DNA of 64,000 bases, taken from assembly GCA_903813345.2 (NCBI GenBank), contig CAIIXF020000008.1, forward strand, positions 26,644,822 through 26,708,821, read 5' to 3'. Shown one piece after another: positions 12,016-62,934 of this stretch. A model generated the notes under the pieces. That model was not told the DNA's origin and did not search any database. It worked only from the letters and a program-made list of their open reading frames with translations. Each line of letters opens with the position of its first letter. The stretch's first letter is position 1. Position numbers and translations under genes: made by a program. This DNA is from Owenia fusiformis (lineage: Eukaryota > Annelida > Polychaeta > Sabellida > Oweniidae).

Positions 12016-12017
12016 TA

Positions 12018-19479: not shown

Positions 19480-20138
19480 TGCGAATATGGCTGGAAGAAA
19501 TGTACAGACATACACGCTTGAAAACAAGAACACTCTAAGAAAGCTTGCCACATTGCGTAATGAAGGCCAACTTTGTGATCTGATGTTTATATTCCCAGAT
19601 GGCAGTCAGATTGAAGCCCATAAAGCAATAGTATGCCAGTACAGTAGTGTCATCAAAGCCAGATGTGTGGACATTGACCAACATAAGTTACAAGTCCTAT
19701 GTACTGATATAGACAATGAACAGGCGATAAATCCTAGTATCTTGAATATCATGCTGGATTATATCTACGGACTGAGTATAACTATACGACATGAATATAT
19801 CCAAGATATCATGAGGCTTGCTATTAAACTTAACATTCCTGAATTTCTTGGTGACTGTGATAAGATTCTTTTTGAGAATAAAGCACTTGGCCCATCTGAT
19901 CTAATGATTAATGCACAGAACATCAAACAAGAACAGACAGGGTCTGGCTATGAAACTGGGCAAGTGTCAGACTTTGGCATGGCTGATCAGCCCCTTGTTA
20001 CACCTAGTACAAGTTTTGATGGTGCAAATCTTCAGGAACCGATTGACGAAAAGGCTGCTAAACCCCCTGGTAGAAGGAAGAGAAAGGCTACCAAAGTTGT
20101 TAAAGCAAGTGTAGAGCAGTTACCCGAGCCCCAATCAG
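19480..20138 (+). CDS. Constant exon 1: BTB/POZ domain of a BTB-zinc-finger transcription factor
   Basis: The exon begins after TTTTTCAG, only 7 nt before ATG 19487, so at least one untranslated 5' exon lies upstream. It encodes 217 residues and ends phase 1 at G|GTATGG. Residues about 25-130 are a BTB/POZ fold: GQLCDLMFIF with the conserved Asp31, then DGSQIEAHKAIV with His45, then LDYIYG. BTB domains dimerise and recruit co-repressors. After it come IKQE (146-149, a SUMO-site match) and PGRRKRK (194-200), a basic patch that is part nuclear signal, part AT-hook-like. The N-terminal LRWNN segment of the insect lola/ttk group is absent. Reading past the donor gives only a short tail ending at 20176. 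Confidence 0.9.
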
Positions 20139-20505
20139 GTATGGTCCAGTGGAGCATGTTGGTTCTGTATCGCTGAAATAAAAATTATTATTCAGTTGAG
20201 TAAATTTGATAAAGATTTTTAATCAGTTGTAAAAATTCTCATTCAAAGGCAAATTTGAAACCTGTAATTTAAAAGTGGAACACTTAGAAATGAAACACCT
20301 CTGTTTATGAAACACTTTTCAGAATCCCAAGACCAACTGACTTAATAATGTCAGAACATCTATAAGTGGAACACCTCCAAAGTAGAACACCTCTCAAATG
20401 GAACAATTGTTTTCTGTTTATATATACTGGTATATACAGTACACAATGTCACATTTTTTGTTTGATATAGAAATAGTAATTTGAATACTGCAATTGTTAA
20501 TCTAG
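20139..20505 (+). other. Intron 1 of the constant region
   Basis: A GT..AG intron of 367 bp. Positions 20270-20410 hold several GTGGAACACCT motifs on one strand, a piece of the dispersed AAAACCT-GTGGAACACC repeat family also seen at 52590, 58240 and 61155. Confidence 0.7.
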
Positions 20506-20709
20506 ATGAAGATGATGATATGATGGATAACCCACTAGATGATGACACTGATGAGTATGAAGCTGACAACTTCACTGCTATCAAAGCTGAGGAAGCTGAC
20601 AGTGATTACAATGAATCAGCTTCTCCTAAGAAAAGGAAAAGGTCAAAAGCTAAGAAGACTACAGTTTCAACTAAAAGGAGCCACCAAAAGAAAACAGCCA
20701 CACTTGATC
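20506..20709 (+). CDS. Constant exon 2: acidic segment and nuclear localisation signal
   Basis: The exon is bounded by TTGTTAATCTAG and C|GTAAGT, phase 1 in and out, 204 nt (68 codons), which keeps the frame between BTB and fingers. It encodes an Asp/Glu-rich run (DEDDDMMDNPLDDDTDEYE), a sumoylation-type IKAE, a further acidic stretch, and the basic PKKRKRSKAKK nuclear signal followed by a Lys/Thr/Ser-rich tail. I chose the third AG (20505) because the two earlier AGs give the wrong phase. The exon has no known domain; it looks like a flexible, possibly activating or regulatory linker. Confidence 0.78.
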
Positions 20710-21521
20710 GTAAGTTGCTTCTTAAAGCTTTGTGTGTCCAGTTGTCTTGTTTTCTGGAGCGTTCATAGTGGAAGCTTTTGAAACAGTCACAGAACTTGAA
20801 ACGTTAGTCACCCATTCATTGGCATTGGCACATATTTATTTCTACCTCATGTAATATTACAAAAAGAGGTACTAATTACCCAAAAATGTTTGTACTTCAT
20901 GTGATTTCTTGTGATGTCTTCTGACTAATATTTAGCTTAGCTGCTGTTCTATGTTCAGCAATCAATCAAATCCCTGATCTACATGTACCTGTTCATGCCT
21001 TTTTGAATGGTTAGAGTATAGACTGGTAATAACATTGTTCAGTGCTTTCGGTAAGGTTGTCCAAGAGTGTCCCTGGAACACAGATTTTCCAAAACTGGTT
21101 CATACCTCAAAAAAGTGGGTCCTGTGAAAAAAGATTACTGGGTATTCAACCACATTTTTAAACTAGACAAAATGATATTTTGCATCGTTTTTGTCATTAT
21201 TTATTGGTCTTAATCAGCATTCTACATATGTCTAGGTCATTAAATGGTACAGATACCATCACTTGTAAGAGATAACTAATATTCAACCATTTACAAGTAT
21301 TACTGCCTGCAAAAGTATGACAGTTTGATTCCAAGCCAATCATAGCCCAGTGTCTATAATATCTGATTCTAGTTATGTCAGCACCAGTGTTGACATATTG
21401 TTTGAGTCACCACATTTTTGTGGATAGTGTTTGGCGATTAGAGCTATCTCTAACAAATGGCAGGTTGTGATATTTTGCATGTTAATTCTTTGTTTGACTC
21501 ATTTTTATTGTTATTTTACAG
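20710..21521 (+). other. Intron 2 of the constant region
   Basis: An 812-bp AT-rich intron, GTAAGT to TTTTACAG. Nothing else is recognised in it. Confidence 0.7.
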
Positions 21522-21674
21522 CACTGTTTTGTAAGGAATGTGATCAAAAGTTTGATGCCTACAAAGATGCTGCTGAACATCATAAAGGGGTGCATAACCT
21601 CATTGTTTGTGATGTCTGTGCAAAGATATTTGACAATGAGGCTGATCTCCGTCGTCACAGTGTGCTTCATTCTG
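21522..21674 (+). CDS. Constant exon 3: two C2H2 zinc fingers and the variable splice donor
   Basis: 153 nt (51 codons), phase 1 on both sides. It encodes two C2H2 fingers: CKECDQKFDAYKDAAEHHKG-VH, and CDVCAKIFDNEADLRRHSVLH. The donor CATTCTG|GTGAGA lies directly after the second finger. The GGTGAG of the donor coincides with codons for the Gly-Glu of a finger linker. Spliced to T2-T12 the junction codon becomes Glu, giving HS-E-x-I-L; spliced to T1 it becomes Gly. This is the single donor from which every terminal exon below can be joined in frame, so I take it as the branch point of the alternative splicing. Unspliced reading ends at 21886. Confidence 0.85.
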
Positions 21675-24194: not shown

Positions 24195-24979
24195 GAAATC
24201 CCCCTCGGATCAGAATAAATCAGGCGGGGAAGGCAGTGTTTCAATGTGATGTATGCGATAAACAATTTGCTATAGAACCAAGGTGCTTGCTGCGGAATCA
24301 TTCATTCAAGGCAAATTCAACCCGTCGTTATATAGAGCACCTTAAGACTCACCATGGTGATAGACCCATGATATGTAAGATATGTGGAGTTGGTAAGCGT
24401 ACCATGTCTGTGTATCTACTCCACCAAGACATGCACCTGGGAATGTCAGTTCATGTATGCAGGCTCTGTAACAAGTCATTCCAACACAGAGACAGCCTAG
24501 GGACCCACCTTAACCATATACATAATGAAGAATATAAACGAAAGGCTCAACGAATATGTGAAAAGTGTGGCAAGTTGTGCAAATCAAGAGCAGCGTACAT
24601 GTACCATAAAAAATCTGCCCATGATGAGGCTGGACCTGTTATATGTGATGTATGCAACAAAGAGTTCTCAAACAATCATAAACTTCGGGCCCATTATGCC
24701 TACCATCAGAAAACAGTACTATGTCCTGAATGTGGCAAGCAGTTCACATATAAGTCTAAATTACAGCGTCATATCAGGCAGATGCACTCTATAAAAGCCA
24801 AGTCAGGGATACCATGTGAAATCTGTGCAGTGATGTACTCTGATAAAGTGGCCCTTGCTGAACATATGAGTACAGACCATATGACAAAACCTATGGATTC
24901 AAGTTTTACGAACAATTTTTACCATTCCACATCTAATTTCTTGGATAGCAACCCTACGTATGTTGGTAGTAATAATTGA
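24195..24979 (+). CDS. T1: divergent seven-finger alternative terminal exon
   Basis: The acceptor is TTCCTGTTTCCAG with phase-1 entry (G|GA), and the stop is TGA at 24977. About 260 residues. After a short basic leader (NPPRIRINQ) come about seven fingers: an irregular first one (CDVCDKQF followed by an extended spacer), CKICGVGKRTMSVYLLHQDMH, CRLCNKSFQHRDSLGTHLNH-IH, CEKCGKLCKSRAAYMYHKK-SAH, CDVCNKEFSNNHKLRAHYAYH, CPECGKQFTYKSKLQRHIRQ-MH, and a last CEICAVMYSDKVALAEHMS. It lacks both the opening E-x-I-L motif and the HY-x5-C finger shared by the later terminal exons, so it is the outlier of the set and probably an older or independently recruited module. An ATTAAA at 25246 may serve as its poly(A) signal. 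Confidence 0.8.
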
Positions 24980-25257
24980 ACTTACTTGTACTTGCAGTGT
25001 ATAAAAACTACTAACCTTGTATAATTTATCTTTTATGACTAAATCTTATATGATACATTTGATGGTCAAAAAGCAAGGTAAATGGCAAATTAGGGACAAT
25101 ATCTGATGGATGCTTTATGCTTATCAGAAAGAAACATTCGTAATATTCACTACAAATACTTGGATTAGCCTATTCAACAGCTTACCGTTACTTCTACTTA
25201 TCTACCTCTTTATTTTCTATTACATACACTAATTTACAATAATTGATTAAATACAAT

Positions 25258-26279: not shown

Positions 26280-26532
26280 ACAATGCATTTGAATTTATTT
26301 TAAACAGCAAAAAATATTTTTTATCTAATATAAAAAATTATTTATGTTCAACACATAACTTTTAAATGTTTATCCAAGTAATATATAAAGTGAAACATTC
26401 AACATTATCATTTATGTTATTCAACATTAAATAAGTTTGGAACTGCATTTTTCTATATTTAAAATCTGTGAAACCATCTGGATTAAAAGTTGGATGCAAG
26501 TCGAGTAAATGGGGGATTATTTTTTCTTACAG

Positions 26533-27494
26533 AACAAATCCTGATAGTGGATGCCAAAGGCAGACTGGTCTACCACTGTCAACATTGTAGTGAAGAAATA
26601 CAACATAGACAATCTTTCTTAAAGCATATAAAAACACATGAAGGGAAAATATTCAAGTGTAAAGTATGTGATAGTACTTGGAAAAACTTGTGGAATTTCA
26701 CTGGACATGTGTACTCACACACCACTGATAGTCCTGAATATATGTGTAACATATGTGGAAAGATAATTAAAGGAGCACAGTACAAATTGACTGAACACAT
26801 TGCACGTTTACATAGTGATGATAAAGAGAAACAGTTTAGCTGCTCTAAATGCTCCAAGTCATTCCATAAAGAAGGGAGACTAGTAAGGCATATGCTGATT
26901 CATGCTGAGAAAACACAGGAGTGTTCAATTTGTGGAGCAATGTTTGCTTTAAAAGAAAATCTAAAATCTCACATAGCCCTTGTTCATAATGGTAAAAAGT
27001 CTTATATCTGTGCAGCATGTGGAGCTTGTTTTGGGTATAAAAGGACATTGCAATCTCACTACTTAAGGAACCCTCATTGTGCGGGCAAAGCTCTGGTGCA
27101 GTTGCCTGACTTTAACTGTAAGGTCTGTAACAAGTCCTTCTTCAGCAAGCATGGTTTGGACCATCATGAAGCCATGGTACATAGTGAAACACCAGCACTT
27201 TTCAAATGTGCTTTAACCCCATGTACTAAAACATTCAAAGTGGAATCTGATTTAAAGAAGCACATACGAAGAGCCCATATTAAACCTCATTTATGTAGTA
27301 TATGTGGCAAGTCATTTGGTGAAAAGTCAGACTTGCTTCATCATACTAACATACACACGGGTGAAAGGCCATTCAAATGTGACGTCTGTGAAAAAGGATT
27401 TGCAAATCATGGGAGTTTATTTAAACATAAACAGTTGCATACCATCAGGGCAAAGTCGGACCCATTTCAATATACTTGGCCAATCAGCCCATGA
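26533..27494 (+). CDS. T2: ten-finger alternative terminal exon
   Basis: Acceptor TTTTTTCTTACAG, phase-1 entry, stop at 27492-27494, about 319 residues. It opens EQILIVDAKGRLVYHC. Ten fingers follow: F1 CQHCSEEIQHRQSFLKHIKT-H, F2 CKVC, F3 CNICGK, F4 CSKCSK, F5 CSICGA, F6 a C2HC finger CAACGACFGYKRTLQSHYLR-NPHC, F7 CKVCNK, F8 with an unusual C-x4-C spacing (CALTPCTK), F9 CSICGK, F10 CDVCEK. Only F9-F10 are joined by the canonical HTGERPF linker; the other spacers are longer and irregular. The protein would bind DNA as a BTB dimer when joined to the constant exons. T3 is the nearest relative: the first 40 residues are almost identical. Confidence 0.88.
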
Positions 27495-28685: not shown

Positions 28686-29734
28686 AACAAATCCTGATAG
28701 TGGATGCCAAAGGAAGACTGGTCTACCATTGTCAACATTGTAGTGAAGAAATACAACATAGACAATCATTCTTAAAACATATGAAAACACATGATGAAGG
28801 GAAAATGTTCAAGTGTAAAATATGTTCAGTGACAAAAATTCAGCTTATGCAGTTTGTGACTCATGTATTCCGACATCAGGATCAGTCGAAACACTCATCC
28901 ATGGATAAAATTTCTAACTTAATGTGTGACATCTGCGGAAAGATATTTAAAGGCAGTAATTATCTCAAACTTCATAAATCAAGTATCCATGGTGATAAGA
29001 CTTTTAATTGCCCATCATGTAATCGAACATATGGTGCGAAGAAGGCATTGCATAGACACATGAAGTGCCATGGAGAGCGCTCCAATGAATGCTCCACATG
29101 CGGAATGAAGTTTGTTTTAAAGGAAAATCTGAAGTATCATATTGCATCAATACATAGTGGGAGCAAATCTCACAAATGCAAGGCATGTGATGTAGGGTTT
29201 GTGTACCGCAGTCAGCTGTATACGCACTACAGAGCGAATGAAGAATGTGCTAATATTGCAGATGTCAATGTTACTTTTTTCCAATGTGAAATTTGCAACA
29301 AGAGCTTTACTACAAAGAAAAGCTGGACTCACCATAAAATACGCACTCATAATGTTGGTACCAGCAATGAGTCGAGATTTGCCTGTAAGCAGTGCAGTAA
29401 ATCCTACGTGATACAATCAGATCTTAATAAGCATGTCCAGAGAAGCCATGTTAGACCACACCTTTGTAGTGTGTGTGGCAAAGCATTTGGGGATAAGAAA
29501 CACCTTGAAGAACACTTCAGGAGACATACTGGGGAGAAACCATTTTCTTGTGATACCTGTGGCAAAAGATTCACCCAGTTTGGAAGTTTATACAAGCATA
29601 AACATATCCACCTAAAGGAATTTCCAAATCCCAATAAAATTGATTCAGATACATTGAATGACCCAATAGGTTCACAGACTTACCAACATGATGACTTATA
29701 CACCCCTGTCAATGCATATGTTCCTTTTGAGTAG
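28686..29734 (+). CDS. T3: ten-finger alternative terminal exon
   Basis: Acceptor TTATTTCTTCTTACAG, phase-1 entry, stop at 29732, about 348 residues. It opens EQILIVDAKGRLVYHCQHCS, identical to T2, so the two arose by a fairly recent duplication, at least for their 5' parts. Fingers: CQHC, CKICSV, CDICGKIFKGSNYLKLHKSS-IH, CPSCNRTYGAKKALHRHMKC-H, CSTCGM, the C2HC finger CKACDVGFVYRSQLYTHYRA-NEEC, CEICNKSF, CKQCSKSY, CSVCGKAF, and CDTCGKRFTQFGSLYKHKHI-H. The F9-F10 linker is HTGEKPF. A short acidic/polar tail follows. AATAAA at 29959-29964 is a fitting poly(A) signal. After the first two fingers T2 and T3 differ in most residues that would contact DNA. Confidence 0.88.
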
Positions 29735-32709: not shown

Positions 32710-34451
32710 AGGGACTTCTGATATTGGGGGACTTCGGTGAATTTGTTTACAAATGTTTGGACTCGGAATGTGACAAGATCTTCAACAATACGACACTCTG
32801 GAAACCATTGCGTCGTCACATGAATGAAAAACATGGAAAGGAATTGTTTGAGTGCACAAAATGTCAGAAACAGTTTCCCCTGTACTTTCGATACACCTCT
32901 CATGTGTTACATGTGCACCAAGGTGTAAAGAGGAGTGACTTCAAAGTGTCTGTACCTTGCGAGATATGTGGTAAGGTAGTGTTAAGAGAGCGGATGATGG
33001 CCCATAACAAGACATTTCACTGGGATAAGATTGAGAAATGTGAACTTTGCGGTAAAACTTTCCAGTGTGAACAATACCTGAAACTTCATATGGAAACACA
33101 TAGCGATAAACTGTATTTGTGCACGATTTGTGGCAAGAGTTTCCAGCGCAATCAAAGCTTAGTGATGCATATCAATATAATACATTTGGGTGCAAAGAAA
33201 TTCTCATGTCCAACATGCGATATGAAGTTCAAATACCGGGAGCAGTTGCAAAATCATTATATCAATCAACCAATGTGTGTACCGTATTGTGTGGAGAAGG
33301 GATACCAGTGTAATATATGTGGCAAGTTCTGTACCAGTGATGCTCATTTGAAGTTACATGAAGCGCGTGTTCATAATAACATTCGCTATAAGTGCATGAT
33401 TTGCAATAAGAAATTCTTAAGGGCCAAAGAATTGAATTTTCACATTAAGAAGATCCATGAGAAGCCATTCCAATGTTCCTATTGTGGGAAACGATTTGGA
33501 ACACGAGGGTTTCTGAAGACCCACTCTTACACACATACAGGAGAGAAGCCTTTCACATGTGAATTGTGTGGAGTCAGTTTTGCTGGAAGTGGGACTCTAT
33601 ACAGACACAAGCAAGGGAAGTCTCACCTTGATAATGTCAACAGGACAAAATACGGAATGATGGGTGGCTACCAAGCAGCTCAGCCTCCAGCTGCTGAAAA
33701 CTTTGTACAACCTGAGAGTGAAATCAGTCCGCATAGTCTAGCAACATCATCACAGCGTGAAAGTAGTGTCGTTCGGGACGATTTGGTGACACAGTTACAG
33801 CGTGATAGAAATAATACCCAGGAAGAATTAATCGCATCATTACAGCGTGAAAGAAATATTGGCCAAGAACATATAAGTTCACCATTACAGCGAGAAAGAG
33901 ATGTTAGCCAAGAAGATTTAAGTGCGTCATTACTGCGTGAACGAAATATTGGCCAAGAACATTTCAGTGCATCATTACAGCATGAAAGAAATATTGGTCA
34001 AGAACATTTCAGTGCATCATTACAGCATGAAAGAGATATTGGTCAAGAACATTTTACCGCATCATTACAACGTGAAAGAAATATTGGCCAAGAAGATTTA
34101 ACCGCATCATTGCAGCGTGAACGAAATATTGCCCAAGAACCTTCAGCCACATCATTACAGCGTGAAAGAAATATTGGCCAAGAAAATATCAGGCAAGATT
34201 TAAGTGCACCAATTCAGCGTGAGAGAAATATCAGTCAAGAACATTTAAGTGCACCATTACAGCATGAAAGACATATTGGCCAGGAAAATATCAGCCAAGG
34301 TTTAAGTGCATCATTTCAGCGTGAAAGAAATATCCCACAAGACAATTTAATTCCATCATTACAGCATGAAAGCAATGTTGCTCAGCACAACCTAGTGTCA
34401 ACGCTACAGCGTGGAGACAATATTGTTAATGATAATTTAACTGGGCCGTAA
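32710..34451 (+). CDS. T4: ten-finger terminal exon with a 15-residue repeat tail
   Basis: Acceptor TATCTTTACAG, phase-1 entry, stop at 34449, about 579 residues. It opens EGLLILGDFGEFVYKC. The first finger has an enlarged loop (CLDSECDKIF). Then CTKC, CEICGKVVLRERMMAHNKTF-H, CELCGK, CTICGK, the C2HC finger CPTCDMKFKYREQLQNHYIN-QPMC, CNICGK, CMICNK, CSYCGKRFGTRGFLKTHSYT-H and CELCGVSFAGSGTLYRHKQ, with HTGEKPF between the last two. The remaining 240 residues are a tail of about fifteen imperfect 15-residue repeats, consensus SLQRERNIGQEHFSA (33769-34440). The tail is hydrophilic and probably helical; its role is unknown. AATAAA at 34628 follows the stop. Confidence 0.88.
33769..34440 (+). repeat. 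45-bp coding minisatellite in the T4 tail
   Basis: About fifteen copies of a 45-bp unit encode SLQRERNIGQEHFSA-like repeats. Some copies are nearly identical in DNA (33958-34050), so the array has been expanding recently, and always in frame. Confidence 0.9.
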
Positions 34452-36606: not shown

Positions 36607-37571
36607 AGAACATACTCTGTGTTGAGAATGGAACCTTGGTGTTTATTTGCCAGGAATGTGGTCTTCACTTGAAAACTGTGTATTATTACAGAAAACACAT
36701 GGAGAGAGTTCATGAAAAGAAACCATTTCAGTGTAAACCTTGTGGACGGCAATTTGATATCCGCAATAAATACAGCGAGCATATTTTGCGCTGGCATCAT
36801 GGAGTAAGCTATAATCAACTCTGGAATGTGGCTAAAACTGTCTGTGAATATTGTGGAAAAATGATTCCAACCTTACGTTTTTCAGCGCATAAAAAAGCTT
36901 GTCCTAAAAACAAAGATTTAGTGAAGCCTTTTCAATGTGATATTTGTGCGAAAACATTCTTTAAAAATCATAGTTTAAAAGCACATAAGGAATCCCATAC
37001 TGAAGGAAATAACTTTGAATGCAATAATTGTCGCAAGAAGTTTAAAACTGCTAGGATTTTGGAGAAACATATAAGGTATATTCACTTGAAATTAATGAAA
37101 ATAATTGAATGTAAGGTATGTCATTTGAGGTTGAATTCCAAAGCTCGACTTCAAAGGCACTATCATGAAAATCCAGAATGTGTCACAAATGAAACTGTAC
37201 TAGATACTTATTCATGCTTAGACTGCAAAAAAATATTTTTTTGTCGCCCAAGACTGGTAGAACACCAAGCTCGGGTGCATTCAATAGGTGGGAAAAAAGT
37301 AACTTGTGACCTATGTGACAAATCTTATAATCTTATAAAGGATTTGAAAGCACACATGAGGTTGGCTCACCAAAAACATTTCAAGTGTCCATTTTGTGAA
37401 AAAAAGTTTGGACATAAGTACCACATGGAGAACCATAAAAAGGTTCATACAAAAACTAAACCTTATAAATGTGACATATGTGAAGTGAGCTTTACACATC
37501 AGGGAACATTACATTCACACAGAAAGGGGAAGCCTCATTTAAAGAGACAAAAACAGTTGACTTCACTTTAA
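36607..37571 (+). CDS. T5: ten-finger alternative terminal exon
   Basis: Acceptor TTGTTTATTTCCAG, phase-1 entry, stop at 37569, about 320 residues. It opens ENILCVENGTLVFICQECG. Fingers: CQECGLHLKTVYYYRKHMER-VH, CKPCGRQF, a third that ends in Cys (CEYCGKMIPTLRFSAHKKAC), CDICAKTF, CNNCRKKF, the C2HC finger CKVCHLRLNSKARLQRHYHE-NPEC, CLDCKKIF, CDLCDKSY, CPFCEKKF and CDICEVSFTHQGTLHSHRKG. The canonical linker is altered here (HTKTKPYKC rather than HTGEKPYKC). T6 is a close sister across the whole length, including the Cys-ended third finger and the NPECVTNE/KPECVTNE block. AATAAA at 37746-37751 is a likely poly(A) signal. Confidence 0.87.
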
Positions 37572-40692: not shown

Positions 40693-41660
40693 AGAACCTG
40701 CTCAATGTCAAAAAGGGAACCTTGGTGTATATTTGCCAGGATTGTGGTCAACATTTCCCAAAGGTGTATTTTTACAAAAAGCACATGAAAGAAGTTCATA
40801 AAAAGGAACCATTTTCATGTAAACCTTGTGGAGTAGAATTTCATCTCAGCAAAAAATATATCAACCATATTTTGCGCTCACATCATGGACTGAGCTATAA
40901 ACAACTCTGGAATGTGCGAACAACTGAATGTGAAGATTGTGAAGTGATGATACAAACCAATAATGTAGCAAGGCATAAACAAGTTTGTCCTAGGAACAAA
41001 GATGTGGTGAAGCCTTTTCAATGTGATATTTGCGAGAAAGCATTTTTTTACATATCTCAATTAAAAGAACATAAGGGAAGTCATAATCAGGAAAATGACT
41101 TTGAATGTGATATTTGCCATAAGAAGTATAAACATGCTAAGGGTTTGGACACACATATGAAATATTATCACTTGAAATTAAAGAAAATGAGGGAATGTAA
41201 AACCTGTCATTTAAAGTTAAGTTCTGAAGCTCTCCTTCAGAGACACTATCACGAAAAACCAGAATGTGTCACAAATGAAACTGAATTGAAAAATTACACA
41301 TGTTCAGGATGCGGAAAAGTATTTTTTGCATATCAGTCGTTGGTACAACACGAAGCTCAAATACATTCAATAGGTGCAAAAAGAGTTACTTGTGAAATAT
41401 GTGGCAAATCATACAATATTGAAAAGGGTCTGAGAGCACATATAAAGGTAGCTCACCAAAGACAATTAAAGTGTGTGTTTTGTGAAAAAAGATTTGGACG
41501 TAAAAACCAGTTGGAGGCACATTTAAACACTCATACAAATACCAAACCTTTTAAATGTGACATATGTGAAGTGGGCTTTGCACATTCTGGAACTTTGTAT
41601 AGACACAGAAAAGGGAAGGCTCATTTAGAAAAACAAAAAGAAATGACTCCAATAATGTAA
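40693..41660 (+). CDS. T6: ten-finger alternative terminal exon, sister of T5
   Basis: Acceptor TTATTTAATTCCAG, phase-1 entry, stop at 41658, about 321 residues. It opens ENLLNVKKGTLVYICQDCG. Fingers follow the T5 plan one for one: CQDCGQHF, CKPCGVEF, a Cys-ended third finger (CEDCEVMIQTNNVARHKQVC), CDICEKAF, CDICHKKY, the C2HC finger CKTCHLKLSSEALLQRHYHE-KPEC, CSGCGKVF, CEICGKSY, CVFCEKRF and CDICEVGFAHSGTLYRHRKG. The last linker is HTNTKPFKC, again non-canonical as in T5. The DNA upstream (AATATCCCATTC..., then the Cys-Gln acceptor region) is similar to that of T5 only near the acceptor, so the duplication is not very recent. No canonical AATAAA was found in the first 300 bp after the stop. 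Confidence 0.87.
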
Positions 41661-43968: not shown

Positions 43969-44957
43969 AGGGAATTCTTATCATGGATGGTGCTAGGGGT
44001 GTCCTCATGTACAACTGTGAAACATGTGACCTTCAAATAGAGAACAGAGCACAGTTCTTTGTCCACATGCAGCAGAATCATGGCAAATTACCATATAAGT
44101 GTAGACACTGCAATGAAACATTTGCCAACACTAAATACTTCATTTTCCATATCTTGAAAATCCACCAAGGATTTCGATGGACTGAGATTACAAATCCGGA
44201 GAATTCTGTATGTGATATATGTGGACGCGTTATGAAACGGGAAAACATCAAAGATCATAAGCTGAGGAAACACAGCAACTTTAGGCCAGTTACATGTACA
44301 TTATGCGGCAAAAGATTTCTGACCAATGGAGAGTTAAATGCACATATGGTGTATCACAATGAAAAGCGATTCATGTGTCAATTATGTGGTGTGAAGTTTT
44401 TTAAACGATTTGAGCTTAAGAGTCATACAAACAGAATTCATTTAAAGACAAAAATGTTTAGTTGTAAGCATTGTAAGGTCGAGTTTATGTCCGTTGATAA
44501 AAGGTGGCGTCACTACCTCGAAAGCCCAGAATGTGTCAAAGTTGGTAATATTGCAATGACAGTATACACATGTGAAACATGTAAAAAACAATTTCAACAC
44601 AAAGCTAAACTAGAAATTCACATAGAAAGGTACCATAAAGTGGGGAAAGAAACATTCACATGTACAATATGTAGTAAGGCATACTCAGTAGAAGACAGCC
44701 TTAAGTACCATATAAGGACTGTTCATGGTAAAAAGTCAAACAAGTGTCATCTTTGTTATAAGTCATTTCAATCAAAGAGTATTCTAAACAACCATATTAG
44801 GACCCATACTGGTGAGAAGCCACATAAATGTGAAGTGTGTAATGTCAGTTTTAGTCACAATGGAACACTGTATAGGCATCAGAATGGCAAGGCACATATT
44901 GCAAAAGTAAATTCATTGAGGCCTTCAAATGATATTTCCCACTTCAGCTATCACTAG
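43969..44957 (+). CDS. T7: ten-finger alternative terminal exon
   Basis: Acceptor TTTTGTTGTTGTTACAG, phase-1 entry, stop at 44955, about 328 residues. It opens EGILIMDGARGVLMYNC. Fingers: CETCDLQIENRAQFFVHMQQ-NH, CRHCNETF, CDICGRVMKRENIKDHKLRK-H, CTLCGKRF, CQLCGVKF, the C2HC finger CKHCKVEFMSVDKRWRHYLE-SPEC (one residue longer before the His), CETCKKQF, CTICSKAY, CHLCYKSF and CEVCNVSFSHNGTLYRHQNG. HTGEKPHKC links the last two. AATAAA at 45112-45117, 155 nt after the stop, is a good poly(A) signal, and the next acceptor (T8) is only 423 bp from the T7 stop, one of the tightest spacings in the array. Confidence 0.88.
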
Positions 44958-45380: not shown

Positions 45381-46165
45381 AAAGAATATTGGTGTTAAAC
45401 AAGGGTGCGCAGTTCGTCTTCATCTGTCATATTTGTCAACAAGAATTCTACGAACTTCAACAGCTTACTGAACATACACTGAACACCCATGAAGGCAAAA
45501 TCAGATGTAATATAGGTGTTTGCAAAAGGGTGTATAGTACATTTGCAAAACTATGTAACCATATTCTTGCACGTCATTATAATAAGAAATATGTATCAGC
45601 TTTGGCCTGTACAATTTGTGGCAAGAATTTTGAAAATAAATCACTTCGAGAAAGACATGAGAAACAAACTCACCTTAAAGAATCATGTTACATTTGTAGT
45701 ACTTGCAAATCTGGATTTTCATCAAGGTCAAGCTATAAAAGACATTATATCAAAAATACAAAGTGTTTTGATAGTAGACCTGAACATTTTAAATACCATA
45801 TCTGTGATATTTGCGGAATGATGTTCATATGTATGGCTGATTTAACTCGTCATCGTGGCTTTAAGCATACCACCAGTATGGAGTGTCACATCTGTCAAAA
45901 AACACTCCCATCACAGTTAAAACTAGCTCGGCATATGGAGGTATGCCATAATAAGAATCTCCAGTGTAGTTATTGTGGGAAGGCGTTTGGAACGGCAGAT
46001 ATTCTTAGGAGCCACATGCGGATTCATACTGGAGAGAAACCTTATAAATGTGACTTATGTGATATGTCATTTACACACACTGGAAGTTTATCTAAACATA
46101 AGCAATCTAAAGGACACATTGAAAATTCTCTCAAGATAAAGATCCATAGGAAACCAATAGTGTAA
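45381..46165 (+). CDS. T8: shorter, eight-finger alternative terminal exon
   Basis: Acceptor TTCGTTTTTTTATTTACAG, phase-1 entry, stop at 46163, about 260 residues. It opens [16 protein letters not shown]. Eight fingers: [22 protein letters not shown], a C-x4-C one ([10 protein letters not shown]), CTICGKNF, the C2HC finger [62 protein letters not shown] and [29 protein letters not shown] links the last two. Compared with its sisters it lacks the fourth and fifth fingers: the C2HC finger follows the third directly. The loss is clean and in frame. AATAAA at 46436-46441 follows. Confidence 0.88.
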
Positions 46166-47349: not shown

Positions 47350-48317
47350 AGAGGATACAGATTGTGGATGAAACAGGAGAACTGGTGTATATTTGTGACA
47401 CATGTGAATACAAAACAGAGAGGAGGAATCACTTGTACAAACATCTCCGCTGCCACCATGGCACCAAATTCTTTAGATGTAAACAATGTCCAAGATTTAT
47501 GAAAGATTATAATCATTATGAAGAACATGTATTAACAAAACATATAACCACTCCATGTGAAATATGTGGGAAACTGTTTGGAGATAGATACATGCCAAAG
47601 CATCGCCTGAAACACTTGAAAGGAGATTTGACCTGTCATGAGTGTGGCATGTTATTGAAGGGGAAAAAAGCTATGTCGAGACACATGAGAGCACATGGGA
47701 TGCCTGAAGAATATCCATGTAGTATTTGTGGAAAATTGTTCAGTTCAAGACATGGAATGCTGCACCATGAAAAGACACACGTTGGTATTCAACTTTTTAG
47801 ATGCAGGCACTGTGGTAACCGCTTCACAACTAAACATAGATTGAATATTCATTACAGAGAAAATGATGTATGTGCTAGACATACAAAAATCTCGGTGCTT
47901 CACTTTATCTGTGATGTGTGTGGCAGAAAAATGTCCGGAAAGCGTGAATTGATTGGGCATAGGATTAGGGTACATGGAGTAGGTATAACTGATGACTTCC
48001 CATGTAAACTCTGTGATAAAGTTTATAAAGTGAAGGGAGACTTATTGGCACATTTAAGAGAATTTCATTACAAGAAATACAATTGTAATGTTTGTGGGAA
48101 GATGTTTGGAACAGCAAGATATCTGGAGGTACACATGATCACTCATACTGGAGAGAAGCCATTCACTTGCACTTCATGTGGGAGGAAATTCGCTCGCAAG
48201 GATAGTACATGGTATAAACATAAGAAGATATGCTACAATGTCGCCGTTGTTCCATCTGCTCCAGAATCCAACACTGCTCCAGAATCCAACCTATTGAAAA
48301 GTGAAGGAGCGATCTAA
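47350..48317 (+). CDS. T9: ten-finger alternative terminal exon
   Basis: Acceptor TTTTACTTGCAG, phase-1 entry, stop at 48315, about 321 residues. It opens ERIQIVDETGELVYIC. Fingers: CDTCEYKTERRNHLYKHLRC-HH, CKQCPRFM, CEICGKLFGDRYMPKHRLKH, CHECGMLL, CSICGKLF, the C2HC finger CRHCGNRFTTKHRLNIHYRE-NDVC, CDVCGRKM, CKLCDKVY, CNVCGKMF, and a last one that also ends in Cys (CTSCGRKFARKDSTWYKHKK-IC). HTGEKPFTC links the last two. A short tail contains APESN twice. Its 3' third was copied to 53480-53818 in the tandem block duplication. AATAAA at 48684 may be its poly(A) signal. Confidence 0.88.
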
Positions 48318-50259: not shown

Positions 50260-51512
50260 AACATATTCTGGTGTTAGGTGAGCATGGATGCCTTGTTTAC
50301 CAGTGTACCACTTGCCAAGTGACCTACGGAGTTGATTCCAAAAGACCGTTCCTCACTCATATGCGTGGCCACAATGGAGCAAAAATGCTCCCCTGTTCAT
50401 TATGTGAGAAACAAATGAGCAATTTTACACTCTTCATCGACCACATGCTCAGGCACCAAGGAATCAAACAGCCACAGGTTGTGTACTCTCGAAAACCATG
50501 GGTCAGGAAGTGTGATCTCTGCAGCAAGGTTTTGAAATCGGCGAAAGCTTTCAATCACCATCTGGCAGCTATGCACGCCAAAGAGAAATCATTTAAATGC
50601 GGAAAATGTGGAAAATCATTTGGCGCGGAATATATTCTAAAGTTGCACATGCAGCGCCATGCTGAGAAAAATATCATATGCAATGACTGCGGAAGAAAGT
50701 TCCTTGATATTATAGCACTTAAACGTCACATGGTCATGCATACTGGCGATAAAAAGTTCAAGTGCAAAAGTTGCACTCAAGGATTTCTGCATCGTTATTT
50801 GCTATTAAGACACTACAGGGAAACAAAAGAATGTGCTAGTAAAGCTAAGGTTGAAATTGCAAAATTTGTTTGTGACATATGCGGTACTGAACACATCACA
50901 AAACGTGGTATGGAAGACCACAAGGTTAGAGCCCATGGAATAACACAAAACACTGCTGAGTTTAAGTGCAACATCTGTGATAAAGTCTACTTGTTGGCTA
51001 AAGATCTCCAACAGCATATAAGACAGAGTCATCTGAAGAATCATAAGTGCACAAATTGTGGTAAATCATTTGGAACAAGTAGGGCATTGAAACAGCACAT
51101 GAGGACCCACACTGGAGAGAAACCATTTAAATGTAACCAGTGTGATAAAACATATACACAGTATGGAAGTTTGTATCAGCATAAAAGAAGACATAGTAAA
51201 GATGAAACAGAGTCTGTGAAGCTCAATATGAAATACTCCACTGGCTACCAACTTGGAGACACCAAGCCATGTGTGGTTGCCATGTCCAGTGGGAACAATC
51301 TCTACCCAGTGAGGATTAATCTTAGTACACCAGAGACAGATCCTAGCAAAGGTTACCAAACAATGAATGACCAAGGCAAATCAGTGAACCCACAGATCGA
51401 GGAAAGTGGCGAAGTGTACCCTGTATATATGTACCCATCATGTCCATCTGATACAAGTGAATACCAGGGACCATCTATATCAGACAGCATTACTACGCAC
51501 CAGTCCCCCTAA
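50260..51512 (+). CDS. T10: ten-finger alternative terminal exon, tail shortened
   Basis: Acceptor TTTTCTACTTGCAG, phase-1 entry, stop TAA at 51510, about 416 residues. It opens EHILVLGEHGCLVYQC. Fingers: CTTCQVTYGVDSKRPFLTHM-RGH, CSLCEKQM, CDLCSKVLKSAKAFNHHLAA-MH, CGKCGKSF, CNDCGRKF, the C2HC finger CKSCTQGFLHRYLLLRHYRE-TKEC, CDICGTEH, CNICDKVY, CTNCGKSF, and CNQCDKTYTQYGSLYQHKRR-H; linker HTGEKPFKC. A Pro/Ser/Tyr-rich tail follows, but it ends early: relative to T11 a 237-bp piece is missing at a CCCC microhomology, and one extra C shifts the frame into the stop. The rest of the old tail is still present, out of frame, to 51717. AATAAA at 51777. Confidence 0.88.
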
Positions 51513-51776
51513 CACCTCATCTAATGAAGGTAAACCGTACACATCTCAGGGAGACATAGTGAATGTTTATCCATCTGTCCAAGACAAGCTTTATACCCCA
51601 GTAGAGCCAACTCCAGGGGAAGAGCAACAACAGTCTGTCTCTCCTGACAAAGCTTACCCTTCACATTTTATCTACTATAGGAACCAATACCAACCATACC
51701 AAGGGGACTCAATCTGATTGGTTTGATTTAGATAAATGAATGTTGACATTGAGGGAATAGATGGACAACACAGATA

Positions 51777-51782
51777 AATAAA
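51777..51782 (+). terminator. Poly(A) signal AATAAA after T10
   Basis: The same signal lies at the matching place after T11 (57586). Confidence 0.5.
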
Positions 51783-53479: not shown

Positions 53480-53818
53480 GTGGGTATAACTGATGAGTTC
53501 CCATGTAAACTCTGTGATAAAGTTTATAAAGTGAAGGGAGACTTATTGGCACATTTAAGAGAATTTCATTACAAGAAATACAATTGTAATGTTTGTGGGA
53601 AGATGTTTGGAACAGTGAGATATCTGGAGGTACACATGATCACTCATACTGGAGAGAAGCCATTCTCTTGCACTACCTGTGGGAGGAAATTCGCTCGCAA
53701 GGATAGTACATGGTATAAGCATAAAAAGATATGCTACAATGTCGCCGTCGTTCCATCTGCTCCAGAATCCACCACTGCTCCAGAATCCAACCTATTGAAA
53801 AGTGAAGGAGCTACCTAA
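53480..53818 (+). pseudogene. Headless copy of T9 (last three fingers and tail)
   Basis: 112 codons match the T9 3' end almost exactly: GITDEFPCKLCDKVY, CNVCGKMF, HTGEKPFSC, and the Cys-ended last finger. The copy starts abruptly at the duplication breakpoint, with an in-frame TAG just upstream. The only nearby AG (53478-53479) would splice in phase 0, not the phase 1 needed for the constant donor. It therefore cannot act as a terminal exon as it stands. It has no finger 1-7 and no ATG. Its reading frame is still open, which suggests recent origin. It could only be used if spliced by another route; I think it is a dead leftover. Confidence 0.85.
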
Positions 53819-53886
53819 CTTCTTAACTAACTCGATCAAAAGAAAGAGATTGAATTCTCTATGATTTTGACCATCTATTTTTAATT

Positions 53887-55831: not shown

Positions 55832-57489
55832 AACATATTCTGGTGGTAGCTGAGCATGGTCCCCTTGTTTACCAGTGTACCACTTGCCAAGTGACATACA
55901 GAGTTGATGCCAAAAGACCGTTCCTCACTCATATGCGTGGCCACAATGGAGCAAAAATGCTCCCCTGTTCATTATGTGAGAAAAAAATGAGCAATTTTAC
56001 AGTGTTCATTGACCACATGCTCAGGCACCAAGGAATCAAACAGCCGCAGGTTGCGTATTCTCGAAAACCATGGGACAGGAAGTGTGATCTCTGCGGTAAG
56101 GTTTTGAAATCAGCGAAAGCTTTCAATCACCATCTGGCAGCTATGCACGCCAAAGAGAAATCATTTAAATGCGGAAAATGTGGAAAATCATTTGGCGCGG
56201 AATATATTCTAAAGTTGCACATGAAGCGCCATGCTGAGAAAAATATCATATGCAATATATGCGGAAGAAAGTTCATTGATATTGCAGCACTTAAAGGTCA
56301 CATGGTCATGCATACTGGCGACAAAAAGTTCAAGTGCAAAAGTTGCAGTCAAGGATTTCTGCATCGTTATTTGCTATTAAGACACTACAGAGAAACAAAA
56401 GAATGTGCTAGTAAAGCTAAGGTTGAAATTGCAAAATTTGTTTGTGACATATGCGGTAATGAACATATCACAAAACGTGGTATGGAAGACCACAAGGTTA
56501 GAGTCCATGGAATAACACAAAACACTGCTGAGTTTAAGTGCAACATCTGTGATAAAGTCTACTTGTTGGCTAAAGATCTCCAACAGCATTTAAGACAGAG
56601 TCATGTGAAGAATCATAAGTGCACAAATTGTAGTAAATCATTTGGAACAAGTAGGACATTGAAACAGCACATGAGGACCCACACTGGAGAGAAACCATTT
56701 AAATGCCACCAATGTGATAAAACATTTACACAGTATGGGAGTTTGTATAAGCATAAACGAACACATAGTAAAGATGAAACAGAGTCTGTGAAGCTCAATA
56801 TGAAATACTCCACTGGCTACCAACTTGGAGACACCAAGCCAAGTGTGGTTGCCATGTCAAGTGGGGACAATCTCTACCCAGTGAGGATTAATCTTAGTAC
56901 ACCAGAGACAGATCCTAGCAAAGCTTACCAAACAATGAATGACCATGGCAAATCAGTGTACCCACAAATCGAGGAGAATGGCAAAGTATACCCTGTATAT
57001 ATGTACCCATCATGTCCACCTGATACAAGTGAATACCAGGGACCATCTATATCAGACAGCATTACTGCACACCAGTCCCCATGTACATCAGAAACAAGTA
57101 CAAACACAACATTCAAGCCTTCAATTCAAGACACGAGCAAGCTATACTTGGCTCCTGTATCAGCATCAAGTACAATAACATCAAGCAAAACATACCAGCA
57201 TCCTCCAACACTGGACCCTAGTAATGCATATCCATCCTGCTCCTCTCATGATGCTGCAGATAAATCATATCCACCAGGAAATAAACCATATCCAGTTAGT
57301 TCTGAACTGTTTGCCCCTACCACCTCATCGATTGAAGGTAAACCATACACATCTCAGGGAGACATAGGGAATGTTTATCCATCTGTCCAAGACAAGCTCT
57401 ATACCCCAGTAGAGCCAACTCAAGGGGGAGAGCAACAACATCCTGTCTCTCCTGACAAAGCTTACCCTTCACAGTTTTATCTACTATAG
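55832..57489 (+). CDS. T11: ten-finger alternative terminal exon, full-tailed twin of T10
   Basis: Acceptor TTTTCTACTTGCAG (as in T10), phase-1 entry, stop at 57487, about 551 residues. It opens EHILVVAEHGPLVYQC. All ten fingers match T10 with few changes, for example CNICGRKF for CNDCGRKF, CTNCSKSF for CTNCGKSF and YKHKRTH for YQHKRRH. The tail of about 210 residues is rich in Pro, Ser, Thr and Tyr with recurring KxYP and YPS motifs (KSYPPGNKPYPVSSE, DKLYTPVEPTQ, DKAYPSQFYLL). It is low-complexity, possibly a transactivation or phase-separating segment, but its function is unknown. It is the better guide to the ancestral tail, because T10 has lost 79 codons. AATAAA at 57586. Confidence 0.9.
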
Positions 57490-58826: not shown

Positions 58827-59065
58827 AGAAGATCCAGGTAGTGAACCAAACAGGAATCCTAGTGTACCAATGTGATGCGTGTCCAAAGGAAATGGCCAAC
58901 AAGCTGGACTATTTTAAGCATATGAGGGGCCACCATGGGGAGAAGATGTTGATCTGTAGATACTGCAGTGCCTTCCGCAGCAAAGAAATGAAATTCTATA
59001 TTGACCATCTGTTGAGACACAAAGGCATCAGTCCACACCTGGTTATCTGTGAATTTTGTGGAAAG
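58827..59065 (+). CDS. T12, first part: fingers 1, 2 and the start of 3
   Basis: Acceptor TTTTGTTCATCTCCAG, phase-1 entry, donor GGAAAG|GTAAGT. 239 nt. It opens EKIQVVNQTGILVYQC, then CDACPKEMANKLDYFKHMRG-HH and CRYCSAFRSKEMKFYIDHLL-RH. The exon stops in phase 0 directly after CEFCGK, the Cys-Cys half of the third finger. The second part starts with KLKSFRAMQLHKASMH, which supplies the His-His half. T10 and T11, the nearest relatives, read CDLCSKVLKSAKAFNHHLAA-MH here with no intron. Read-through past the donor would give a truncated protein of two fingers ending at 59119. Confidence 0.85.
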
Positions 59066-59177
59066 GTAAGTTCATCATGGCAAACCTCAGGAACTCAGAT
59101 TTTTATTAAGTTAACCTAATTTCTTTTTTGATTTCTTCTTTATTTTTTCATTACTTTTCTATTGTTTTTCATTTTTA

Positions 59178-60802
59178 GCTCACATGGTGAGCTTTTGCAA
59201 TCACTCACTTGTCCATCTTTCTGTCCGTCCGTCCGTCTGTCTGTCCATCTGTCTGTCCGTCCGTCAACAATAGTGGCACGTTTTAAAACCTCTGTCGATA
59301 GGATTCCTGTTTTAAGTTATTTCTGTTCAACATCAATACAGAAAACCCCCCTATGACTCCTGGTTCAAAAGCTCGCCTATTTTCAAAATGGCCGTCACTT
59401 TTGTCTCGCGAAATTCACTTTTAGCCCATTTCCTAGCTAACCTCTGTCGATAGGATTCCTGTTTTAAGTTATTTCTGTTCAACATCAATACAGAAAACCC
59501 CCCTATGACTCCTGGTTCAAAAGCTCGCCTATTTTCAAAATGGCCGTCACTTTTGTCTCGCGAAATTCACTTTTGACCCATTTCCTAGCTTTAAAAATAA
59601 TTTCAGGTGTCCTACATTGTAAAAATCCATGTCAATGTAAAGGGTAGATATATGAAATAATTTTGTTACAAAAAATCAGCGAAAAATTGTATCCATTTTT
59701 TTATTTTCAGCCATTTTAGTTAACATTGATTTGTCTATCTGACTCGCGAAATCCACTTTCTGTGGCACGTTTTAAAACCTCTGTCGATAGGATTCCTGTT
59801 TTAAGTTATTTCTGTTCAACATCAATTCAGAAAACTCCCCTATGACTCCTGGTTCAAAAGCTCGCCTATTTTCAAAATGGCCGCCATTTTTGTCTCGCAA
59901 AATTCACTTTTGACCCATTTCTTAGCTTTACAAATAATTTCAAGTGTCCTACATTGTAAAAATTCATGTCAATGTAAAGAGTAGATGTATGAAATAATTT
60001 TGTTACGAAAAATCATCGAAAAATTATATCCATTTATTTATTTTCAGCCATTTTAGTTAACATTGATTTGTCCATCTATCTCGCAAAATCCACTTTTGGA
60101 CCATTTACCTTAAACCCTCTGTCGATAGGATTCCCATTTTAAGTAAATTTTGTTCAACATCAATACAAAAAACTCTCCTATGACTCTTGGTTCAAAAGCT
60201 CGCCTATTTTCAAAATGGTTGCCATTCTTGTTTCGCTAAATTCACTTTTTGCCCATTTCCTAGCTTTACAAATAATTTCAGCTGTCCTGCATTGTAAAAA
60301 GCCATGTCACTGTGAAAGGTAGTTGTATGAAATAATTTTGTTACAAAAAATCGGCAAAATATTATATCCGTTTTTTTATTTTCAGCCATTTTAGTTAACA
60401 TTGATTTGTCCATCTGACTCGCGAAATCCATTTGCTTAAAACCTCTGTTGATAGGATTCCAGTTTCAAGTTATTTTTGTTCAACATCAATACAAAAAACT
60501 CCCCTATGACTGCTGGTTCAAAAGCTTGCCTGATTTCAAAATGGTCGCCATTTTTGTCTTGCGAAATTCAATTTTGGCCCATTTCCTAGCTTTACAAATA
60601 ATTTCAGGTGTCTTGCATTGCAAAAAGCCATGTCACTGTAAAGAGTAGTTGTATGAAATAATTTTGTTACAAATTATTGGCAAAAAATTATATCCGTTTT
60701 TTTTCAGCCATTTTAATTGACTGAGAGACAGATGGCTTAAAATAATTTTGTAACAAAAAATCAGCAAAAAATTATATCCGTTTTTTCTGTCACCATGTGA
60801 GC
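59178..60802. mobile_element. GCTCACATGGTGA-ended repeat element with internal tandem units
   Basis: GCTCACATGGTGA at 59178-59190 and TCACCATGTGAGC at 60790-60802 are inverted ends. Next to the left end is a GTCCGTCCGTCTGTC run. The body is made of units of about 325-338 bp starting AACCTCTGTCGATAGGATTC at 59438, 59776, 60112 and 60437, preceded by a 152-bp partial unit at 59286. Similar GCTCAC...GTCCGTC elements are widespread in molluscs and relatives (from memory), but I cannot name this one. Confidence 0.8.
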
Positions 60803-61154
60803 CCAGTACCCACGGTACTAATTTTTATTTATTTATTTTTATTTGTTTTATTTACTATCTCATTCTCTTTAATTTCTTATTCACTGCAATGAAACTCCTC
60901 ATACACCCACCCTGTGTTTTAAAACAAGTCATGCATCTTAACATCTGCTCAAGAAGGAATTAATTTAGTTAATTTTTTAATTTACACAATGATTTCATGG
61001 TAAGTCTATTAAATATATTACTCACTTACATTCTATTGTATTATGGGTTATACTTATTCATGATATGTTTATGATTTGACCTACTTTTGCAACTTGACCT
61101 TGACCTCTTAACTTGAATCAACGTGAGCCCACTGAATGGTGCCAATTTTATGTA

Positions 61155-61352
61155 ATTGTAGTAAAACCTTTGTAAGTGGAACAACTTTGGTACCTCTAAA
61201 AAGTGTTCTACTTTGAAGGTGTTCCACTTTAGAGGTGTTCCACTTACAGAGGGTCATTTAACAATAAGTCTAGAGGCTATTGGGTTTTGAAAAGTGTTCC
61301 ACTTATGGAGGTGTTCCACTTTCAGAGGTGTACCACTTTACAGGTTTTACTT
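61155..61352. mobile_element. MITE, AGTAAAACCTTTGTAAGTGG ends
   Basis: AGTAAAACCTTTGTAAGTGG at the left pairs imperfectly with CCACTTTACAGGTTTTACTT at the right. Inside are several GTGTTCCACTT motifs on both strands. Partial relatives are at 20270, 52590 and 58240. Confidence 0.75.
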
Positions 61353-61392
61353 CAACCACAGTATACAATATTTTTTGTTTATGTACTTGTAG

Positions 61393-62934
61393 AAGTTAAA
61401 GTCATTCAGAGCAATGCAGCTACACAAGGCATCCATGCATACGCCCATCAAGTCATTCAAGTGTGACCAGTGTGAGAAATCATTTGGTGCAGACTTCCTC
61501 TTGCAGCAACATATAGTGCATCACAAGAAAGAAATACAATGTGACATCTGCTCCAAGAGATTCTCAACAAAGGGGGCGCTTAATGCTCATCTTGTGATCC
61601 ATACTGGTGAGAGGAAGTTTAAATGTAAATCGTGCAGGGAGGTATTTAAACATAGATTTCTACTGATGCGGCACTACAAAGATGATAAAGACTGTGCTGT
61701 TAAAGCAGACATTGATGTTCCAGTGTTTAGCTGTGATAAATGTGGCCAGGAACACTCGACCAAACAGAACTTGGACCGTCATAAAGCTAGGAAACACAAC
61801 ATTCAAGCAAAAGGAGAATTCCACTCTTTTAAATGTTCATTATGTAATAAAAGTTACACACTAGAGTCAGATCTGAAGGACCATGTGAAACAGAGACATA
61901 TCAAAGATGTTAAATGTCCACTTTGTGAGAGATCATTTGGACTGAAACGTACCTTGAAGGAGCACCTTCAATCCCACACTGGAGAGAGACCCCATAAGTG
62001 TAAGATGTGTGATAAGGCCTATGCTCAAGCTTCAAGTTTACACAAACATAATCGAATACATCATAAGATACAAAATAAAGAGACTAAAGATATCAAAATA
62101 GATTCGATTCATAGTTCAGATCTGATGAAAAATGAAGGGATTCAACAAAATACTAAAATTAAAGGAAATCAAGGTGTCCAGACATATATTGAAAAGGAGC
62201 ACACAGGGATCGAGCAGAAGCATGAAGAGATTAAATATAAAGTACAAAAGTTTTACACAGAAATTCCAATAGCAAAGACTGATGAAACGAACCACAATAG
62301 TGCAGATGATTGTGAAGCTCTTCATGAAATCAAGGGAATTGAACTGAAACATAGTCTTAAGAGTACAATTTCCACAGAAGCCAAAGAGATAGAAAACCAA
62401 GCTGAGATGGAGCGACAAATAAAAATTGGGCAACAAGTAGGCATTGGGCAACAGATAAAAATGGGACAAGGCAAATTTGGCCAACAAGTAGAAATGGGGC
62501 AACAAGTAGAATCTGGGCGACAAGTATGCATAGGGCAACAAATAGAAATGGGACAAGTTGAATTTGGACAACAAGTAGAAATGAGGCAACAAGTAGAAAC
62601 TGGGCAACAAATAGGCATAGGGCAACAAATAGAAATGGGACAACAAGTGGGATTTGGGCAACAAATAGAAATGGGACAACAAGTGGAATTGGGGAAACAA
62701 GTAGAAATTGGGCAACAAATAGTAATGGGACAACAATTAGGCATGGGGCAACAGGCAGAGATGGACCAACGAATAGAAATGAGACAAGTAGACATTGGGC
62801 AACAAATTGAGATCGGGCAACAAGTAGAAGTTGGACAACAAATAGAATTAGGGCAACAAGCAGATATGGGGCAACTATTTGCAAGTCATGCAGAGACTGT
62901 CACTGTAAAATCACCACCTTCTTATCTTGCATAA
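61393..62934 (+). CDS. T12, second part: fingers 3-10 and a Q-rich hexapeptide tail
   Basis: Acceptor TGTACTTGTAG, phase 0, stop at 62932, 513 residues. It completes finger 3, then CDQCEKSF, CDICSKRF, the C2HC finger CKSCREVFKHRFLLMRHYKD-DKDC, CDKCGQEH, CSLCNKSY, CPLCERSF and CKMCDKAYAQASSLHKHNRI-HH; linker HTGERPHKC. A Lys/Glu-rich region of about 120 residues follows, with EKEHTGIEQKHEEI. The last 170 residues are a run of about 26 six-residue repeats, consensus GQQVEM/GQQIEM (62406-62880). Both the finger order and the C2HC finger place T12 with T10/T11, although the tail is unrelated. AATAAA at 63034 follows. The tail is hydrophilic and Gln-rich, and its role is unknown. Confidence 0.87.
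   Translation, partial: KLKSFRAMQLHKASMHTPIKSFKCDQCEKSFGADFLLQQHIVHHKKEIQCDICSKRFSTKGALNAHLVIHTGERKFKCKSCREVFKHRFLLMRHYKDDKDCAVKADIDVPVFSCDKCGQEHSTKQNLDRHKARKHNIQAKGEFHSFKCSLCNKSYTLESDLKDHVKQRHIKDVKCPLCERSFGLKRTLKEHLQSHTGERPHKCKMCDKAYAQASSLHKHNRIHHKIQNKETKDIKIDSIHSSDLMKNEGIQQNTKIKGNQGVQTYIEKEHTGIEQKHEEIKYKVQKFYTEIPIAKTDETNHNSADDCEALHEIKGIELKHSLKSTISTEAKEIENQAEMERQIKIGQQVGIGQQIKMGQGKFGQQVEMGQQVESGRQVCIGQQIEMGQVEFGQQVEMRQQVETGQQIGIGQQIEMGQQVGFGQQIEMGQQVELGKQVEIGQQIVMGQQLGMGQQAEMDQRIEMRQVDIGQQIEIGQQVEVGQQIELGQQADMGQLFASHAETVTVKSPPSYLA
62406..62880 (+). repeat. 18-bp coding minisatellite in the T12 tail
   Basis: Roughly 26 units of GGGCAACAAGTAGAAATG-like sequence encode G-Q-Q-V/I-E-M. Single units vary, but the frame is kept from end to end, giving long antisense open frames that are not genes. 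Confidence 0.9.

Follow-up and report, generated by a model that had tools for sequence, protein, structure and literature searches.

A BTB-zinc finger locus of the annelid Owenia fusiformis with twelve or more probable alternative last exons

Does a BTB-coding 5' part that is followed by a row of zinc-finger arrays represent one gene with many alternative endings, or a set of neighboring genes? This question is raised by a locus in a window of 64,000 nucleotides (nt) of Owenia fusiformis DNA (positions 26,644,822 to 26,708,821, forward strand, of contig CAIIXF020000008.1, assembly GCA_903813345.2; all coordinates below count from the first letter of this window). An original prediction, made from the sequence, had proposed a gene organized like lola of Drosophila, in which shared BTB exons serve many alternative last exons. 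The present analysis makes it highly probable that one BTB-zinc finger gene, with twelve or more last exons to choose from, occupies the locus, and the lola-like reading stands as the best account of the phases, the acceptors, the single BTB domain, the lack of a credible alternative first exon, and the purifying selection on the recently duplicated units J and K.

Constant exons and terminal units

The constant part comprises three coding exons, as had been predicted, and their coding lengths of 652, 204, and 153 nt place every constant-exon donor in phase 1, including the last of them at 21674:

19487..20138, + strand: constant exon 1 (coding part), with the start codon, a BTB/POZ domain, and a basic stretch; donor CAG/GTATGG, phase 1
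20506..20709, + strand: constant exon 2, with an acidic stretch and a basic KKRKR (nuclear-localization-like) stretch; symmetric, being entered and left in phase 1
21522..21674, + strand: constant exon 3, with two C2H2 fingers; shared donor CTG/GTGAGA, phase 1

The BTB/POZ domain of exon 1 is recognized by Pfam (BTB, E 8.2e-14, residues 22-129), and its single-sequence structure prediction has a mean pLDDT of 57.9. A tblastn search of the window with the BTB exon found the exon itself, the next match having an E value of 0.49. A CAG acceptor-like site immediately 5' of 19480 suggests that an exon of the 5' untranslated region (UTR) lies further upstream. By a hand-made acceptor score, the acceptor of constant exon 2 ranks only within the top 18% of AGs. 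The frame into the single-exon terminal units (11/11) is preserved if exon 2, exon 3, or both are skipped, and reading through donor 21674 without splicing adds about 70 intron-encoded residues before a stop. This donor (surrounding stretch 21666-21690) sits at a finger-linker position, where the unspliced frame runs on as the linker-like HSGEN; because of this position, its intron may have arisen within a once-continuous finger array.

Downstream of donor 21674, twelve finger arrays span 24195-62934, all of them on the + strand. Their acceptors, which are the first positions given for units A to L below, had all been predicted exactly: each one is a CAG, each enters the finger array in phase 1, and in 12/12 cases it is the top-scoring AG within -150 to +60 by the same score. 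Since the units are homologous, these twelve acceptors do not count as twelve independent events. Fingers were counted with the pattern C-X2-5-C-X12-H-X3-6-[HC].

24195..24979, + strand: terminal exon A; 6 fingers; diverged further than any other unit; first codon G, not E
26533..27494, + strand: terminal exon B; 9 fingers
28686..29734, + strand: terminal exon C; 10 fingers; first ~140 nt near-identical to B, remainder highly diverged
32710..34451, + strand: terminal exon D; 8 fingers; in-frame minisatellite tail with a 45 nt unit (33795-34380)
36607..37571, + strand: terminal exon E; 9 fingers
40693..41660, + strand: terminal exon F, sister of E; 9 fingers
43969..44957, + strand: terminal exon G; 9 fingers
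45381..46165, + strand: terminal exon H, 423 nt past the stop of G; 8 fingers
47350..48317, + strand: terminal exon I; 8 fingers
50260..51512, + strand: terminal exon J; 9 fingers; shorter tail than K
53480..53818, + strand: partial thirteenth unit, which repeats the 3' end of I but has neither leader nor acceptor
55832..57489, + strand: terminal exon K; 9 fingers; product of a recent duplication of the block with J
58827..59065, + strand: unit L (9 fingers in all), first exon, with the leader and first fingers; donor AAG/GTAAGT
61393..62934, + strand: unit L, second exon, with the remaining fingers, a repetitive GQQ tail, and the stop

Pfam detects C2H2 families in 12/12 units and a BTB domain in 0/12, so the claim that the downstream units carry no BTB of their own is upheld. 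With a stricter finger pattern, 105 matches are found on the + strand of the entire window, and no finger is found on the - strand. The open arrays that had been predicted are present, although the count per unit is 6 to 10 and not 7 to 10, and unit L is split by an intron. From its acceptor, the frame of L is open for 96 codons only and then meets a stop. An extra GT-AG intron of 2.3 kb (59066-61392), with a donor matching 9/9 consensus positions and an acceptor that keeps the frame, leaves it open to 62934. This intron, which is missing at that place from the other eleven units, is a candidate for a recent gain. Much of it (59287-60703) consists of tandem repeats of ~152 and ~337 bp, and the tail of L (62415-62875) is an in-frame minisatellite with a unit of ~18 nt. 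In exon A, an apparent insertion of ~14 codons relative to the other units is visible by eye within the first finger (24243-24340).

Duplication history and selection

The units align finger by finger, all twelve have in common a short leader that ends in [LFA][VM][YF]xC (read by eye, its consensus is ExILxVxxxGxLVYxC), and the residue at the junction is E in eleven of them and G in A; by these features the units are paralogues that arose by tandem duplication. In a tree of the arrays, adjoining units come out as sisters (E-F, 99/99; J-K, 99/97; B-C, 92/96), with support above the tool's mark for E-F and J-K and just below it for B-C. D and H also group together (98/97), while A, D, H, and I lie on long branches and their placement is unsure.

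Copies of several ages can be told apart. A block around J (49010-51508) is repeated around K (54551-57080) with 91% identity. In addition, the 3' part of unit I recurs at 53480 (96% identity over 339 nt; recurring stretch 53480-53886), with the same order on the left side. To the twelve units of the original prediction is thus added a truncated thirteenth copy at 53480-53818, which is probably not usable as an exon. Around 51450-51550, where the tail of J is shorter, J and K align with 236 gap columns; a K-like tail runs on in J in another frame, and J has therefore probably lost its tail. The starts of B and C (26517-26669 and 28670-28825) match over 156 nt at 93%, beginning 16 nt inside the intron, and silent divergence is 0.21 over the first 40 codons and at least 1.3 or incalculable beyond them, which makes gene conversion of the exon start probable.

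The recent J/K copy has changed less in its array than in the sequence around it. Between J and K, 57 of 1200 positions differ over 50250-51449, without a single gap, whereas the 1.2 kb upstream has 106 differences in 1176 positions plus 79 gap columns (Fisher P 4e-5 against the array); downstream (51750-52349), 43 of 545 positions differ and there are 90 gap columns. For J/K and E/F, the ratios of amino-acid-changing to silent divergence (dN/dS) are 0.43 and 0.53, respectively. In five of the seven unit pairs tested, silent divergence is at least 2.8 or incalculable, yet the frames are open. By these measures the units are under selection, which is purifying on the recent J/K copy.

Whether the copies have diverged in what they bind was approached through the finger helix positions -1, 2, 3, and 6, which we take to be the DNA-contacting positions in the usual numbering. 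Across all pairs except J-K, 292 of 2000 comparisons at these positions show the same residue, as against 673 of 3000 at the other variable positions, the comparisons across pairs not being independent. For E-F the corresponding counts are 11/36 and 27/54 (P 0.08), and no excess change at contact positions is seen in J-K (31/36 vs. 48/54) or B-C (16/36 vs. 21/54). Diversifying selection on DNA-contact residues is unproven, no single tested pair being significant. It is predicted from these residues, and likely, that the units differ in DNA specificity.

Joining of the units to the BTB exons

Ten of the twelve units have their first in-frame ATG in finger 1 or past it. In the twelve gaps, a search for ATG-initiated open reading frames (ORFs) of at least 30 codons that end at a phase-1 donor matching at least 7/9 positions gave one candidate (51810-51999), and the antisense control also gave one. 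A codon-composition scan of 21.7-58.8 kb found no segment scoring 15 or more outside the named exons, bar the 53480 fragment; scores of 24 and 17 were obtained for the two small constant exons. The twelve gaps thus hold no credible coding first exon that could serve as an alternative. As ten units have no early ATG and no other 5' coding exon is found, the units need a coding exon upstream of them, and only the BTB part is seen as such. No common 7-letter word upstream of the nine non-redundant acceptors exceeds chance (best count 4), a search by which promoters could be missed, and no clear promoter signal was found by eye in the CpG profile in 1 kb bins. Most units also have a polyadenylation signal of their own: AATAAA lies no more than 300 nt past the stop in 9/12 units (null mean 3.5; 5 of 5000 random draws as high) and no more than 400 nt past it in 10/12.

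Several observations weigh against this picture. The prediction that no unit has an obvious start of its own holds for ten units but not for D, where an ATG at 32643, upstream of the acceptor and so before finger 1, is in frame, or for G, where one lies five codons past the junction codon, likewise before finger 1. The prediction that AATAAA follows most units depends on the distance allowed, since within 200 nt it is found in 5/12, which is not significant (P 0.10), and unit F has no AATAAA within 1.5 kb of its stop but ATTAAA only. The acceptor score is a simple, home-made one (pyrimidine tract, CAG, and no nearer AG), and the exons described here also served to train the codon-composition model. 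The common origin of the strongly divergent unit A rests mainly on its leader and junction, and in one 40-codon window of J/K amino-acid change exceeds silent change. Finally, the sequence is compatible with non-coding first exons or promoters belonging to individual units.

In an alternative reading, each variable exon would be transcribed separately from a promoter of its own and then trans-spliced to the BTB exons; the design of the proteins would be the same. Trans-splicing is described at the two best-known loci of this layout, at mod(mdg4) and, as joining between alleles, at lola (PMC4667647, PMC11426971). In Anopheles gambiae, the donor and acceptor exons of mod(mdg4) are described as lying on one strand and as likely trans-spliced, so a one-strand layout would not by itself exclude this mode of joining (PMC4667647). 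On the other hand, mod(mdg4)-like homologues of Daphnia, beetles, and Hymenoptera are described in the same paper as cis-spliced (PMC4667647). At the present locus, ten of the eleven gaps between units measure 1.2-4.3 kb and offer space for promoters, but the G-H gap is just 423 nt, and the search for shared upstream words gave nothing above chance, though promoters could escape it. The twelve units lie on the BTB strand and end at most 41.3 kb from the donor, and trans joining is not required; cis joining is preferred because all units are on one strand and nothing in the layout forces trans-splicing, which makes the trans-spliced version unlikely here.

Tandem clusters of finger genes are common in animals, and the arrays could also be such a cluster of independent genes, mostly with non-coding first exons, that neighbors a BTB gene by chance. 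The possible starts ahead of finger 1 in D and G would fit this idea. It would leave unexplained why ten units have no in-frame ATG ahead of finger 1, why a phase-1 acceptor matching the BTB-side donor is kept in 12/12, and why no credible coding first exon is found in the gaps; moreover, a BTB frame without a downstream unit would end in the ~70 intron-encoded residues. It is accordingly the least probable of the alternatives. A third alternative is that only a few of the terminal units are in use and the remainder are decaying duplicates. The partial copy at 53480 does look dead, and the tail of J is shorter than that of K, apparently through a frame-shifting deletion. Nevertheless, the array is open and the acceptor preserved in all twelve units, despite the strong silent divergence in five of the seven tested pairs, and the J/K array is free of indels and more conserved than its flanks, so widespread decay is improbable.

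For a single gene with cis-joined alternative last exons, the following mechanism can be proposed. One promoter upstream of the constant 5' part would drive transcription. The constant part would provide the BTB domain for self-association and co-factor binding, the acidic and basic linker, and two fingers, and would end at 21674. This donor would be spliced to one of at least twelve units, each with its finger array, stop, and 3' UTR with poly(A) site. The choice, if regulated, might result from competition between acceptors and from poly(A) site use as the polymerase passes acceptors located 2.5-37 kb downstream. Twelve or more proteins would result, alike in their interaction module and differing in their predicted DNA contacts; the common BTB domain might let isoforms associate, while the arrays would read different sites.

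The surroundings of the gene contain other elements. The left 14.4 kb of the window carries long ORFs (1593-3224, 4168-7653, and 12012-14420), of which the last two match reverse transcriptase, the Pfam families detected being those of reverse transcriptases and endonucleases; for 1593-3224, no Pfam match above the cut-off was found. Between A and B lies an inverted repeat with arms of ~430 bp (25257-25685 and 25850-26280) that are 96% identical, and the whole (25257-26280) is perhaps a foldback mobile element.

Relation to lola, mod(mdg4), and ZBTB genes

Should the proposed reading be correct, a transcription-factor repertoire has been expanded inside a single gene without gene duplication, and the stepwise origin of such a bank is visible in one place, in fresh (J/K), middle-aged (E/F), and old copies. 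It is somewhat more probable than its contrary that a lola-style bank, with twelve or more alternative last exons, evolved independently in a ZBTB-type gene of a non-arthropod animal through repeated tandem duplication of one whole finger-array exon, and that the bank is still being shaped by conversion of exon starts (B/C) and by duplication of blocks (I-J to K). According to a 2023 review, the regulated last-exon choices studied so far are binary, and how the right lola exon is selected is not known (PMC10551640). A second locus with the lola layout, a different BTB class, longer arrays, and duplicated exons would offer an independent test case for last-exon choice.

The class of the BTB domain bears on this origin. 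ZBTB17 and BCL6 chains head the matches of this domain to solved structures (among the best 60 of 81 matches). ZBTB17/Miz-1 and BCL6 combine a BTB domain with C2H2 arrays, and the present gene likewise has an N-terminal BTB/POZ domain with C2H2 fingers C-terminal of it, the two being joined in one mRNA by the proposed splicing. To our knowledge, no vertebrate ZBTB gene has a dozen alternative terminal finger exons. Among the literature matches listed, which are open-access papers, no such locus outside insects was found. Eight stretches in viral contigs carried the pattern used to look for relatives of exon 1, and none was confirmed.

The BTB domains of lola and mod(mdg4) are described as TTK-type with an N-terminal FxLRWN motif, and the same paper reports that a search of several other protostome phyla, Annelida and Mollusca among them, did not find this motif (PMC11426971). 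In exon 1, neither F.LRW nor a relaxed pattern was matched, as had been predicted when the insect-type N-terminal segment was said to be missing, and the domain is thus not of the TTK type that orthology with lola would entail. The absence of FxLRWN and the proximity to ZBTB17 and BCL6 make a separate origin of the design likely relative to lola, which the prediction had put forward as a possibility.

In mod(mdg4) of Diptera and Lepidoptera, shared BTB exons are joined to dozens of variable 3' units, which mostly encode FLYWCH domains and in flies lie partly on the opposite strand, being joined by trans-splicing (PMC4667647). The present locus resembles it in its common BTB exons and many variable 3' units, but all twelve units here are C2H2 and on one strand, and none encodes FLYWCH: no Pfam match to this domain was obtained up to E 0.01 in the twelve units, in a scan that left out the gaps and the minus strand.

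The likeness to lola is closer. This gene is described as having shared BTB exons and 20 last exons with their own 3' UTRs, 17 of which encode zinc fingers (PMC10551640, PMC11426971). Both are single loci with common BTB exons and many alternative finger last exons, and here the last exons fit one donor and one phase and have their own stops in 12/12 cases in the sequence, L with an extra intron. The differences lie in the BTB domain, which in lola is TTK-type with FxLRWN and here is without it; in the arrays, with one or two C-terminal fingers in lola proteins (PMC7299341) as against 6-10 per unit here; in the two fingers carried here by the constant part; and in the variable exons, which at the present locus, where paralogy was examined, are recognizable whole-exon paralogues. 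By sequence, the locus behaves as lola in its layout and differs from it in the BTB feature by which lola would be recognized; it is very probably a well-preserved lola-type gene of separate descent.

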